This document shows, piece after piece, positions 13,764-18,060 of a stretch of 64,000 nucleotides of DNA (position 1 is its first letter; each line of letters opens with the position of its first letter). The position numbers and the translations under genes are program-made. The stretch lies in assembly GCF_001661595.2 (NCBI RefSeq), contig NZ_LYPF02000004.1, positions 124,001 to 188,000 on the forward strand, in the 5' to 3' direction. The stretch comes from Crocinitomix algicola. Its GTDB lineage: Bacteria > Bacteroidota > Bacteroidia > Flavobacteriales_D > Crocinitomicaceae. The notes under the pieces were generated by a model that worked only from the letters and a program-made list of their open reading frames with translations, had not been told where the DNA came from and made no database searches.

Positions 13764-13796
13764 GAAAAAAGGCAAAGAATATTTTCCTTGCCTTTG
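13764..13796 (-). terminator. Intrinsic terminator of the TlpA/DUF6029/Omp28 operon
   Basis: On the minus strand AAAGGCAA pairs with TTGCCTTT, with three further inner pairs around an AT loop, and a run of six T residues follows. It lies about 30 bases past the stop codon of the Omp28-like gene. Confidence 0.8.
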
Positions 13797-13823: not shown

Positions 13824-14750
13824 TTAAGGTTCCATAACATGCTTAATCACTTGCTCAACCTCGAAAGTTTCACGATTATAAACAACAATTAAAAAATGCA
13901 TATTACTTGGATTTAAATCATCGGGTAAAACATGACTAAAATCATTTCTAATTCTAGTACCAGCAGAAATATCCTCACTAGCGAGAAGACGCCCCCAAGT
14001 TTCATCAAAAACATTTCCTCGGTGAATATCATGATGTACGTAAAACGTATCTGTAACTTCTAACCCTCCTTCAATACGGTATAGTTGGGGACTGACATAA
14101 GAATCTTCAATGATATAAGTAACGATATTAAAAGTCCCATTCATATCATTTAGAAATTCGGTGTCAGTGTGTAAATATACTCCTTTGGTCTCTGGGAAAT
14201 AGGCCGATTTTGCTTGTATATTTACATTTAATTCAGAGGCTAAAACTTCTGAACTGATGTCTCCCCAATCACTCCAAGGAAAGAAAAATTTTCCATCTTC
14301 ATTGGCCACACGACTTACATTTCCACTTGGGTTACCAAAAAAACCAATGCCCATTTGAAAAAATGTGCTAGCCATTTCTAAACCGATAGGATTGGTAAAA
14401 TCTCGAGCGTACAATGCGTCTGTTTTTTGAAAATCACCATAGCCACCAACTTCTGCAGACCCATGAATTGCGGCGATAAAAACTCGATCAGGATTAGCAT
14501 CTTTGATTTCTTCAGCTTTTGCCGCAGCTGGAGGACAAAAAGAACATTTATGACCAGTGTAATCCGCTATTAGTATATTTTTATCGGTATTGGGATTGTC
14601 GCCAAATTCAGGATATTCATAGTCTAAAAAATTACCCGGGTATAAACTCGTATCTAATTCAGATTCAAAAACGACAGGAAACTCAACCTTATCACACGAT
14701 ACGAAAGTTAGAGTTATTAAAGGGAAAATAATACAAATTAACTTCTTCAT
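13824..14750 (-). CDS. Omp28-like outer membrane lipoprotein with thioredoxin-type CxxC
   Basis: A 308-aa lipoprotein. The start was set at the ATG at 14750, because it gives a clean signal peptide (MKKLICIIFPLITLTFVSC) with lipobox Cys19. The frame extends 25 codons further upstream into the neighbouring gene without making sense. Residues of about 55-150 have a thioredoxin-like layout: an ADYTGHKCSFCPP motif with Cys69 and Cys72, and a candidate cis-Pro at FFGNPSGN (Pro141). The C-terminal half is beta-rich, as in Omp28-related proteins. Apart from the lipid-anchored cysteine, the CxxC pair are the only cysteines in the mature protein. It is the last gene of a three-gene operon with an exported thioredoxin and a beta-barrel, 10 bases after the barrel gene. 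The molecular function of the family is not known to me. Confidence 0.85.
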   Translation of the reverse strand: MKKLICIIFPLITLTFVSCDKVEFPVVFESELDTSLYPGNFLDYEYPEFGDNPNTDKNILIADYTGHKCSFCPPAAAKAEEIKDANPDRVFIAAIHGSAEVGGYGDFQKTDALYARDFTNPIGLEMASTFFQMGIGFFGNPSGNVSRVANEDGKFFFPWSDWGDISSEVLASELNVNIQAKSAYFPETKGVYLHTDTEFLNDMNGTFNIVTYIIEDSYVSPQLYRIEGGLEVTDTFYVHHDIHRGNVFDETWGRLLASEDISAGTRIRNDFSHVLPDDLNPSNMHFLIVVYNRETFEVEQVIKHVMEP

Positions 14751-14760
14751 AAAAATCTTT

Positions 14761-16413
14761 TTAGAATGATTGAGTAAACGTAAATGTAAGACCATTTGTT
14801 GCCGGAACAGGACGACAAACTCCACCTACACATAAGATACCGGCACGTTGTTTCCCATACATAAACATAAACCTAGAGTTGTTATAAGTATAACCAAATG
14901 CTCCAAGAACATAATGGAGCTGCAGTTTTTCTTCGGGGTGCCCATAGTTATATTGATCAATAATAGTGAAGAACCAGTTAGGTGAAATCGTGTATTCAAC
15001 TACTAATGTTGCCCAGTTACCACGGTCAGTTTTTGTAAATAAGCCCTGTAATTCGGTTCGAATTGTATGATTTTTATTGATTTTATAAGACAAGTCTAAA
15101 ACGCCAATATCAGAATGTATATATCCAGTAGCAAGTTTTGTTATTGGATTTACATTATTGTTATACACAAAGTGGAAATAGTGAGCACTTGCTTTAAATT
15201 TCTTGTTTAACTTTCGAGTGACATGAAAGTTGAAATCAAAATTATAAACACTATCCGTCATTTGGAAAGGTTTAGCTGTATATGAAATTCGTCTTTTTTG
15301 CATGTCAGCATTGTCAGTGTTTCTCTCATATCCCGATGTCAAGGAAACATTCATATGTAAATCTGTACCGTATCGGCCGCCTAATTTTGTTTTCTTCGGA
15401 ATTTTGTAGAGCACATCTAATTGGTAAGCTACCTCACCAAATAAGTTCGTACCGTAAGGATATAAAGTTCCTGCTAAGTTGTAAGTGTGGTTGTTGGAGG
15501 TAGCAGGTAAATAATTAATGAACGCTTGTGTTCCTTCGATTGTACGATCTGAACGAAACAAAATATTGTCTAATGATTTTGCCGTTAAAAGTATACCTAA
15601 ACCTTTTTGAGAATAGCCAAAATTAATCAACGCTCCATGACCGGGATTATAAATATACCCGTTCAATTGCGTTGGATCATTTTCTTTGTAAATATATTCT
15701 CCATTGAGGTAAAAACGCTTATACTTCATGTCAATGCGACCACCATATGAACCTACGTTTTTAGGCAAGATTAACGTGTCGTTCGAAGCGGCTTGGTAGC
15801 GACTCACCAAACTCCCTCCAATGGTAATTTTAAAGTCTGATTGGTCAAAATTAGGAATGATACTATTGAGGTTGATTTCACCGTCAACACCTCTAATAAT
15901 ACCTTCTGAATTAACAAGGTTTCCTTCAATAAAATCTACTCGCTGTTTTCCCATTACACCTTTCAAAACGACACCATCAACTGGCGAAAATTTAATGCTA
16001 GCTCCATCCATCGCATTATCAAGACCTAAAGCCCTTTCTTCATAGGATCGCAAGATTAATCCACTTCCGAATTGCTCATAAAAATTTCCTGCTGTAACCG
16101 TAATGCGATCCCCCGCGTATTGGGCATAACGATACCCAATCCCTGTTCCAGTATAGAAATTTGGATAACCGGCAATAGAAGGTAAATAACTCTCGAACCG
16201 CGCTCCTGCACGAAATTTCCCGACCGAATAATTAACATTCATATATGAGTTCATAACGACCTTTTGTTCTGGTGCAACTGCACCAATCAAACTGTCATTA
16301 TTAAGGTATTGAACGTTAGTTTCCATGTTTCCGGTAACATTTCCGCCTTTACCGAGTTGAGAATAGGCACCAAATACAATTAGTGTAAAAACACAAAATA
16401 GTAGGTTTTTCAT
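14761..16413 (-). CDS. DUF6029-type outer membrane beta-barrel protein
   Basis: A 550-aa protein with a signal peptide (MKNLLFCVFTLIVFGAYS). It is an almost pure succession of amphipathic beta strands rich in Tyr, Phe and Gly, and ends in a terminal Phe as outer membrane barrels do. The match to the DUF6029 family is from memory of its features: a QFGSGLILRSYEER stretch near residue 115 and a Cys pair near the end. The mature chain has exactly two cysteines, Cys528 and Cys533, in ILCVGGVCRPVP, 18 residues before the C-terminus. It lies between the thioredoxin gene (38 bases upstream) and the Omp28-like gene (10 bases downstream). No transport or enzymatic role is established. Confidence 0.8.
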   Translation of the reverse strand: MKNLLFCVFTLIVFGAYSQLGKGGNVTGNMETNVQYLNNDSLIGAVAPEQKVVMNSYMNVNYSVGKFRAGARFESYLPSIAGYPNFYTGTGIGYRYAQYAGDRITVTAGNFYEQFGSGLILRSYEERALGLDNAMDGASIKFSPVDGVVLKGVMGKQRVDFIEGNLVNSEGIIRGVDGEINLNSIIPNFDQSDFKITIGGSLVSRYQAASNDTLILPKNVGSYGGRIDMKYKRFYLNGEYIYKENDPTQLNGYIYNPGHGALINFGYSQKGLGILLTAKSLDNILFRSDRTIEGTQAFINYLPATSNNHTYNLAGTLYPYGTNLFGEVAYQLDVLYKIPKKTKLGGRYGTDLHMNVSLTSGYERNTDNADMQKRRISYTAKPFQMTDSVYNFDFNFHVTRKLNKKFKASAHYFHFVYNNNVNPITKLATGYIHSDIGVLDLSYKINKNHTIRTELQGLFTKTDRGNWATLVVEYTISPNWFFTIIDQYNYGHPEEKLQLHYVLGAFGYTYNNSRFMFMYGKQRAGILCVGGVCRPVPATNGLTFTFTQSF

Positions 16414-16451
16414 AGGTTATGAATTAGCAATATATGGGTGATTTTGGAATG

Positions 16452-16970
16452 TTATTCTGTCAGCTTATAGATTTCGTCATACAATTTTTGTTCATCACCA
16501 GGAACATATCCAACATGCGAATAAACAATATTGCCCTCTCCATCTAATAAAAAGGTTTGTGGTGGATAATTTACACCCATCGCTCTTTTTAAATCGCTGT
16601 TTGGATCCAACCATATTTCATAGTCCCATGCTGCAGCATCTACAACAGGTCTTACCTTGCTTTTATTTCTTTCATCGTCAATTGATACAGCGACTAATTT
16701 AACACCTGTTTCATCAACGAGATCATCATACTCTTCAGCAATCGTATTTAATTCTAGTCGGCAAGGTTTGCACCATGTCGCCCAAAAAGAAACAATTATT
16801 GGATTTCCATCATTCGAAAGCTCGCCTGTATTTATTGAATTTCCGTCAATGTCTTGAATTTGAACTGAAGGCATCTTTTTACCTGTATCTCCACTGTCAT
16901 TAACAAAAGAGAAAATTCCAATCGAAGCTATTAAAGCTAATAAGGGTAGTTTTATTTTTTTCATAATCAT
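16452..16970 (-). CDS. Exported TlpA/ResA-like thioredoxin
   Basis: A 172-aa thioredoxin-fold protein with an N-terminal signal or anchor (about residues 3-22) and the active site WCKPC (Cys67, Cys70) in FWATWCKPCRLE. The cis-Pro lies in NYPPQTF (136-137). The family reduces or isomerises disulfides in the periplasm, for example in cytochrome c maturation or on secreted clients. Here it is the first gene of an operon with a DUF6029 barrel and an Omp28-like lipoprotein, so its clients may be those two proteins. ATG codons at 16970 and 16964 are both possible starts. A well-spaced Bacteroidota promoter lies just upstream. Confidence 0.9.
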   Translation of the reverse strand: MIMKKIKLPLLALIASIGIFSFVNDSGDTGKKMPSVQIQDIDGNSINTGELSNDGNPIIVSFWATWCKPCRLELNTIAEEYDDLVDETGVKLVAVSIDDERNKSKVRPVVDAAAWDYEIWLDPNSDLKRAMGVNYPPQTFLLDGEGNIVYSHVGYVPGDEQKLYDEIYKLTE

Positions 16971-17018
16971 ATTTTTTTGATTCTAATCCAAATTCTGAGC
17001 CAAAAAGGGATTAAGATT

Positions 17019-17049
17019 CAAATGTAGAAAAATATTGACCGTTTGCAAA
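17019..17049 (-). promoter_or_regulatory. Promoter of the TlpA/DUF6029/Omp28 operon
   Basis: Reading the minus strand, TTTG (17049-17046) and TACATTTG (17026-17019) match the Bacteroidota -33 TTTG and -7 TAnnTTTG consensus with a 19-base spacer. The -7 element lies about 50 bases from the tlpA-like start codon. Confidence 0.75.
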
Positions 17050-17319: not shown

Positions 17320-18060
17320 ATGGATATGAAAAAAACACTTACCTTTTTAAGTTTATCACTTTTTCTTTCTGCCTCTTTTGGACAGGATGAATTTAAAATA
17401 ATGCTTCAAGGAGAAGAAACGGATATTTCAGGAACTGTGCATTCTGAACTAACTTACACAGAAGAGTCTCACATTAACTTTGATGTTGAAAATGTAAGTG
17501 GAGCAACAGTCGATGTGAGAATAGAAAGATATAAAGTTGTTGAGTTAGCGGGAACAGAAGATTATCTTTGTTGGGGTGCTGATTTTTTAACAGGAACTTG
17601 TTATCCAGCAGGAACAGTTTCTCCACATAATCCATGGGTGACTCCTGGTGATTTTGAGATGGGAGATGGTTCGGCAGGCTTATTATCATCTTATCATGTT
17701 TCGCATGGTATTGAAGGAACAGTGCAGTATAGATATTATATTATTAACGGAGATGATGAACGTTTAGATTCTGTTGATGTTGAGTATACTTTTGCTGTGG
17801 GATTAGAAGAAGAAGAAAATGTAACCGTATCTTTGTTTCCTAATCCGGCAACATCAGTAGTTAATATTGAATTAAATGAGAATATTCAAAATGTGGGATT
17901 TAGCTTGTACAACGTGTTAGGCGATCGTGTAATTGACCGTACGCTTAATGCTGGAATGAACTCGATAAATGTTTCTGCATTACCAAATGGAGTGTATTTC
18001 TACACGATTCGTAAAGAAGGGGATGTTGTAGAAACCAAAAAATTAGTGGTACGACACTAA
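17320..18060 (+). CDS. Small secreted protein with T9SS type A sorting domain
   Basis: A 246-aa protein. The signal peptide (about 3-21, ending SASFGQ) is followed by a roughly 140-residue beta-rich domain with a Cys pair (YLCWGADFLTGTCYP near 85-95) that I cannot assign to a named family. The C-terminal 75 residues are a type A T9SS sorting domain: SLFPNPATSVVNIEL, then LYNVLGDRV, then LPNGVYFYTIRKEG, ending KKLVV. Type A domains direct secretion through SprA and, in many cases, attachment to A-LPS. ATG codons at 17320 and 17326 are both possible. The gene is monocistronic, with its own promoter and a shared terminator. Confidence 0.85.
   Translation: MDMKKTLTFLSLSLFLSASFGQDEFKIMLQGEETDISGTVHSELTYTEESHINFDVENVSGATVDVRIERYKVVELAGTEDYLCWGADFLTGTCYPAGTVSPHNPWVTPGDFEMGDGSAGLLSSYHVSHGIEGTVQYRYYIINGDDERLDSVDVEYTFAVGLEEEENVTVSLFPNPATSVVNIELNENIQNVGFSLYNVLGDRVIDRTLNAGMNSINVSALPNGVYFYTIRKEGDVVETKKLVVRH

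Follow-up and report, generated by a model that had tools for sequence, protein, structure and literature searches.

A conserved gene cluster around the DUF6029 beta-barrel of Crocinitomix algicola: a possible thiol-disulfide relay between periplasm and cell surface

A 64,000-nucleotide stretch of the Crocinitomix algicola genome (NZ_LYPF02000004.1, positions 124,001–188,000, forward strand), called the window here and numbered from its own first base, carries a conserved cluster of four genes. They encode a TlpA/ResA-like thioredoxin, an outer-membrane beta-barrel of the DUF6029 family, an Omp28-family lipoprotein and a PorA-like secreted protein. Tentatively, and with a confidence that falls just short of even, this cluster is interpreted as a relay that carries thiol-disulfide exchange between the periplasm and the cell surface and whose likely clients are PorA-type proteins. 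The interpretation draws on gene linkage, four invariant cysteine pairs and a TlpA-barrel fusion, which the compared sequences support, and on the thioredoxin fold of Omp28, two alternative signals for its export to the surface and a match to PorA, which sequence or structural models support. The TlpA, DUF6029 and Omp28 genes form one operon on the minus strand (16970–13824), as judged from open reading frames (ORFs) and Pfam matches, with 38 bases between TlpA and DUF6029 and 10 bases between DUF6029 and Omp28. This confirms an earlier note on the same DNA, which had described three exported proteins in one operon with one cysteine pair each. The divergent gene at 17320–18060, which that note overlooked, is part of the same conserved cluster.

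DUF6029 (PF19494) and Omp28 (PF11551) are families without an assigned function, and both window proteins score above the curated cut-offs. The barrel protein (550 residues, 14761–16413, minus strand) matches PF19494 over its full length (residues 1–550, 585.6 bits against a cut-off of 27, E-value 1.3e-175). In a survey of 296 Bacteroidota genomes and 14 control genomes, the family was present in 80 of the former and none of the latter. Fluviicola chungangensis and Hymenobacter duratus, both non-pathogenic, are among the organisms that carry the cluster. Stretches of up to 18 kb around PF19494 matches were taken from most of the 80 genomes, which gave 69 DUF6029 loci picked by the Pfam profile and not by the cysteine motif. 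The match of locus L070 (genome G227) was below the cut-off and was excluded. A second set of 80 named loci was collected with a pattern that included CVGG[VI]CRxVP and was used for gene order only; because this pattern held the motif, the motif count of 80/80 in these loci was not used for invariance. A contig scan needs a well-conserved stretch, which the broad DUF6029 alignment lacked, and a closer alignment was used instead. No DUF6029 relative was found in the viral contigs searched. DUF6029 clusters about 50% identical to that of the window were seen in metagenome-assembled genomes titled Polynucleobacter, Chryseobacterium gleum and Sphingomonadales (L122, L128, L132 and L136), which are probably mislabelled bins.

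The cysteine pair of the barrel is strongly conserved. The redox reading of the earlier note would not have survived a lack of conservation in DUF6029 homologues, and the C-x4-C proved invariant in 67 of them. C528, G531 and C533 are among only nine invariant columns in these proteins, the most divergent of which is 14% identical to that of the window, and the invariant set consists of cysteines and glycines. The motif, C-x-x-G-[VI]-C, was found in 67 of the 69 profile-drawn loci, and both exceptions are truncated or frameshifted ORFs. In 52 of the 67 proteins the equivalents of C528 and C533 are the sole cysteines past residue 40, and full-length members carry the two cysteines about 22 and about 17 residues from the C-terminus. 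In the window protein they (CVGGVC) are the only cysteines of the mature barrel, as had been noticed before; the distance of 18 residues from the C-terminus given then was close, with C528 and C533 located 22 and 17 residues before the end. At locus L096 (G023:C49:13213-14930) DUF6029 is spread over two frames (473 and 61 profile positions), with a frameshift or sequencing error before the cysteine hairpin.

An AlphaFold2 model of the window DUF6029 protein is a confident barrel (predicted local distance difference test, pLDDT, 93.6; predicted template modelling score, pTM, 0.88) in which 24 long strands were counted, a number that we take as approximate. Its loops have a mean length of 15.7 residues on the side opposite the termini and 4.5 residues on the terminal side. 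The cysteine hairpin (residues 525–536) belongs to the loop before the last strand (residues 523–538, 14800–14847, minus strand), as placed by alignment, model and strand parity. Because this is the last long loop of the barrel, parity predicts that the hairpin is extracellular. The fold search returned generic large barrels only, including ushers, MtrB (6r2q_B) and LptD, and the PDB sequence search with the DUF6029 profile gave spurious matches only.

The same observations bear on the strongest rival explanation, in which the cysteine pairs of the barrel and PorA serve as structural disulfides. TlpA and Omp28 would then form, isomerise or proof-read these bonds during biogenesis, similar to the requirement of LptD for disulfides, and nothing would be relayed across the membrane. 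Such a staple would fit the tight hairpin at the outer mouth, and usher- and LptD-type barrels are among the generic fold matches. However, loss of a structural disulfide in one lineage or another is common, whereas the DUF6029 pair is still invariant at 14% identity, and a helper such as Omp28, predicted to be kept on the surface by a lipobox or a sorting tail, would be badly placed to fold a barrel from the periplasmic side; why a thioredoxin should be retained outside is left unexplained. This explanation is regarded as unlikely, if clearly worth keeping in view.

The genes of the operon are linked far beyond the window. In the profile-drawn loci, TlpA is directly adjacent or fused to DUF6029 in 59 of 69, Omp28 is within three genes of it in 52, and at least two thioredoxin-type partners are present in 55. 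With 17 AhpC-TSA proteins scoring above the cut-off in the window genome, chance would place TlpA next to DUF6029 in about 0.5% of cases. In the set of 80 named loci, TlpA immediately precedes DUF6029 in 74 cases and Omp28 immediately follows it in 74, with one case truncated upstream and one downstream. In the genome survey, DUF6029 was present in 58 of the 62 Omp28-bearing genomes and in 22 of the 234 without Omp28 (Fisher 4e-38, a value that is overstated because the genomes are related and not independent), and about 20 of the sampled families show the DUF6029-Omp28 link. Chance association of the three families, which would have spoken against the earlier note, is thus not what was observed. 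The sortase of the type IX secretion system (T9SS) was present in 78 of the 80 DUF6029 genomes and in 119 of the 216 others. Two loci (L154 and L157) are orphans: their DUF6029 gene has the cysteine motif, but the fetched stretch lacks TlpA, Omp28 and a PorA-like gene.

These neighbourhoods also bear on the idea that DUF6029 is a polysaccharide-export porin with the redox genes as accessories. It draws on a published remote HHpred similarity of Wzi-like barrels to DUF6029 and on nothing else (PMC9603273). This was the one paper mentioning DUF6029 that the literature searches returned. In the loci that were read, the neighbours are redox and T9SS genes, no outer-membrane polysaccharide export (OPX) or other polysaccharide gene was recognised among the immediate neighbours that were read, for which no systematic search was made, and cysteines and glycines are what is invariant in the barrel. 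This function appears very improbable.

TlpA (172 residues, 16452–16970, minus strand) has a signal peptide and a WCKPC motif (codons 16761–16772), and it matches AhpC-TSA/Redoxin in Pfam with 73.6 bits against a cut-off of 26 (E-value 1.7e-20). W66, C67 and C70, together with P137 at the cis-proline position, are invariant in 43 homologues, and the protein is predicted to be a TlpA/ResA-like thiol-disulfide oxidoreductase. It is below the NCBIfam cut-offs for ResA (76.9 against 170 bits) and DsbE (59.8 against 123 bits), so that it shares the superfamily but not the named families. Its best PDB match is 2m72, which we take to be PG_2175 of Porphyromonas gingivalis. At locus L078 (7939–9942), a single ORF of 667 residues holds a TlpA domain (21–140) followed by DUF6029 (158–667) without a second signal peptide. 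The termini of outer-membrane barrels are normally periplasmic, and this fusion therefore suggests that TlpA sits at the inner, periplasmic mouth of the barrel. A second candidate fusion (L165, 684 residues) was rejected, since the additional N-terminal stretch does not match TlpA and seems to stem from a start set too far upstream.

The Omp28-family protein (308 residues, 13824–14750, minus strand) starts at the ATG at 14750 (MKKLICIIFPLITLTFVSC-DKVE, with a lipobox and a signal ending SC-DKVE) and not at the upstream GTG of the ORF list. It matches PF11551 with 47.3 bits against a cut-off of 34.9 and scores below the cut-off of the NCBIfam lipoprot_Omp28 family (NF033782, 80.8 against 150 bits), as a divergent branch. 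The lipid-anchor cysteine C19 after the hydrophobic signal, the cysteines C69 and C72 of its CSFC motif (codons 14535–14546), H96 and P141 are invariant in 71 lipoprotein homologues, and C69, C72 and P141 are so in 54/54 operon-associated copies. Profile-profile comparison aligns the N-terminal domain with TlpA across the CxxC. Consistently, the structural model (pLDDT 93.8) has a thioredoxin-like N-terminal domain and a C-terminal beta-sandwich. By profile and model, Omp28 is a thioredoxin-fold protein.

The top PDB fold match of Omp28 is HBP35 of P. gingivalis (5y1a, E 2e-10, template modelling score 0.58), and the Omp28 profile matches HBP35 over both domains (1.2e-8) as well as the Omp28 domain structure 2r2c. 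Both proteins combine a thioredoxin domain with a C-terminal beta-sandwich. In contrast, HBP35 is a T9SS cargo, whereas the window Omp28 is a lipoprotein without T9SS tail, whose gene shares an operon with those of a barrel and TlpA; it is a relative of HBP35, not a member. For HBP35, a surface form and a CxxC-dependent thioredoxin activity were measured (PMC2907840).

The Por_Secre_tail domain was not found in the window Omp28. Among the 54 operon-associated Omp28 proteins, 18 have a T9SS sorting tail and nearly all others have a lipobox. Because two unrelated anchoring signals occur in one operon place, these sequences are best explained by a position of Omp28 at the cell surface, which is predicted here. 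In one family of the sample (f23), DUF6029 occurs without a Pfam Omp28, and thioredoxin-like CxxC proteins, most of them with a lipobox, fill the Omp28 position; in seven loci of this family (L061 and L063–L068) one or two extra thioredoxin-like proteins, with motifs such as NCPHCR, are encoded in the same operon. The surface partner has apparently been replaced there, and the compared sequences suggest that the partner may change while the thioredoxin fold stays. Other arrangements of Omp28 were also seen. One lipoprotein of 689 residues with two Omp28 units directly follows DUF6029 (L092:3390-5459), some same-class genomes have a lipoprotein Omp28 near the operon on the opposite strand (L072, L097 and L078), and the window genome has a second Omp28-domain protein far from the operon (G000:C1:344510-345055, in a frame of 369 residues).

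The divergent gene (17320–18060, plus strand) encodes a protein of 246 residues with a signal peptide, an immunoglobulin (Ig)-like N-terminal domain that holds its only two cysteines (C84 at 17569–17571 and C94 at 17599–17601), and a T9SS type A sorting tail (Por_Secre_tail, 55.8 bits against a cut-off of 27). The profile of its N-terminal domain matches that of PorA (6kjk, whose two cysteines stand in LCFGQC) with E 1.5e-7 and the cysteine pair aligned. Like PorA (PG2172/PGN_0123), the surface protein that acts ahead of PorXY-SigP in P. gingivalis, it joins an Ig-like N-terminal domain with this pair to a T9SS tail in about 246 residues; identity is low and the match is by profile only, and a role of the window protein in PorXY-SigP signalling is putative. 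C84 and C94 are invariant in 76 PorA-like homologues, with 3 to 14 residues between them, and 68 of the 76 have the T9SS tail. The window genome has a single copy of this gene, a T9SS sortase and one PglZ (PorX-type) protein.

The PorA-like gene is also linked to DUF6029. Homologues of its N-terminal domain occur in 96 fetched DUF6029 loci, with 66 copies at most 1.2 kb from DUF6029. Weak matches to the PorA profile (E > 1e-10), which mostly span only the end of the protein that holds the signal peptide, were excluded from the counts. Good matches (E < 1e-10) were found in 48 of the 296 genomes, DUF6029 was also present in 41 of these 48, and in 30 of the 41 the best match was at most 10 kb from DUF6029, against about 0.5% expected. 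In one locus (L034:6863-8350), a PorA-like protein with repeated N-terminal domains and three cysteine pairs is encoded beside at least four Omp28-family genes.

In P. gingivalis W83, PorA is PG2172 and Omp28 is PG2173 (PMC8754138, PMC9722745), and by these consecutive tag numbers the two are adjacent. Among vesicle proteins, PG_2174 is recorded as uncharacterised (PMC4335976); from the tag order only, it may be a DUF6029 member. PorA binds the Sov-PorV translocon (PMC8754138). In a porA deletion mutant, SigP and T9SS components are reduced; PorA does not need the T9SS translocon to reach the surface, and the factor that connects it with the inner-membrane kinase PorY is stated as unknown (PMC7712824). 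The same work reports PorA homologues only from Porphyromonas and does not mention a disulfide (PMC7712824). The sequence matches found here indicate that PorA-like proteins are not confined to that genus.

These open questions about PorA (PMC7712824) make attractive another explanation, in which DUF6029 serves PorA-type proteins specifically, as their exporter or receptor in the outer membrane, TlpA and Omp28 help to move or hold PorA, and mixed disulfides serve for docking. Gene neighbourhood, the co-occurrence of the PorA-like gene with DUF6029, the consecutive P. gingivalis tags (PMC8754138, PMC9722745) and the large size of a barrel of about 24 strands speak for it. However, many DUF6029 loci are without a recovered PorA-like gene, PorA-like proteins have an ordinary T9SS tail, and the thioredoxin partners are left unexplained. 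An exporter or receptor of this kind is considered distinctly improbable.

The relay reading assigns each protein a step. The DsbD-type protein of the window genome, which has one DsbD_TM protein, would presumably supply electrons to the periplasmic TlpA, and TlpA would serve the DUF6029 barrel. At its outer mouth, the barrel would carry a dithiol or disulfide, on the hairpin that precedes the last strand, and would exchange electrons there with surface Omp28, a lipoprotein here and a T9SS cargo in other lineages. Omp28 would act on surface proteins with a cysteine pair, first the adjacent PorA-like T9SS protein. The redox state of this protein, and perhaps its signal to PorXY-SigP, might then be set from inside the cell or reported to the inside. 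Since disulfides are reduced by TlpA/ResA proteins and by HBP35, a reductive direction is preferred, but the direction is left open because complementation of an E. coli dsbA mutant by HBP35 is reported as well (PMC2907840). We infer the localisation, the electron transfer, its direction, the passage of electrons through the barrel and the role of PorA as a client from this combined evidence.

Known systems resemble the cluster in part. The window TlpA belongs to the same family as the thioredoxins in the relays from DsbD/CcdA to TlpA/ResA/CcmG (by Pfam, WCxxC and cis-proline position), in which dithiol exchange passes electrons. Those relays end in the periplasm, whereas the conserved partners of the window TlpA are an outer-membrane barrel and a predicted surface thioredoxin. 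By analogy, the MtrCAB porin-cytochrome conduit also combines a periplasmic redox protein, an outer-membrane barrel and a surface redox lipoprotein. However, MtrCAB uses haems and the window cluster would use thiols; the CXXCH haem motif is absent from all four cluster protein sequences, and the barrel similarity (6r2q_B) is generic. To our knowledge, no thiol-disulfide pathway across a bacterial outer membrane has been described, and known relays stop in the periplasm. The literature searched contained no description of the conserved operon in which DUF6029 and Omp28 stand with TlpA and a PorA-like gene. The families are known and the module is undescribed in that literature.

Several points weigh against the relay, in addition to the relatedness of the genomes in the co-occurrence test. 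The outer membrane separates the periplasmic TlpA from the predicted extracellular hairpin, and a structural disulfide would likewise be expected to show as an invariant cysteine pair. In only 24 profile-drawn loci was the PorA-like gene at most 1.2 kb from DUF6029, and in many it was not found; since many DUF6029 loci are without a recovered PorA-like gene, the PorA-like protein cannot be the sole client. The redox system suggested in the earlier note is thus partly supported. The invariant C-x4-C, the linkage of the families and the thioredoxin fold of Omp28 agree with it; the PorA-like partner and the kinship with HBP35 had been overlooked, and these two give the system a likely place, the cell surface, and a likely client. 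A more far-reaching form, in which a complete thiol-disulfide conduit across the outer membrane sets or reads the redox state of PorA-type proteins, puts the T9SS under redox control and provides the missing trans-envelope link of PorA, is held to be somewhat doubtful.

Transcription signals around the operon are plausible but weak. A candidate Bacteroidota-type promoter, TTTG-N19-TANNTTTG, was placed by pattern match only at 17019–17049 on the minus strand. The TTTG-N19-TACATTTG match is 49 bases upstream of the TlpA ATG, and the pattern was counted 4 times in the window against 4 expected. A candidate intrinsic terminator from the hairpin search (13768–13795, minus strand) is 3' of Omp28 and has a 12-pair stem, a 4-base loop and a T-run; terminator-type matches in the stretch showed no excess over shuffled sequence. 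A promoter-to-terminator unit, as proposed earlier, has a candidate for each of its ends, but neither kind of match is commoner than chance. No tRNA or Rfam family was found in the window.

The DUF6029 barrel is present in about a quarter of the sampled Bacteroidota genomes, almost only in those with T9SS. The module is a testable candidate for two steps asked about in P. gingivalis (PMC7712824): it may account for how PorA arrives at the surface without the T9SS translocon, and it may act as the mediator between surface PorA and the inner-membrane kinase PorY.

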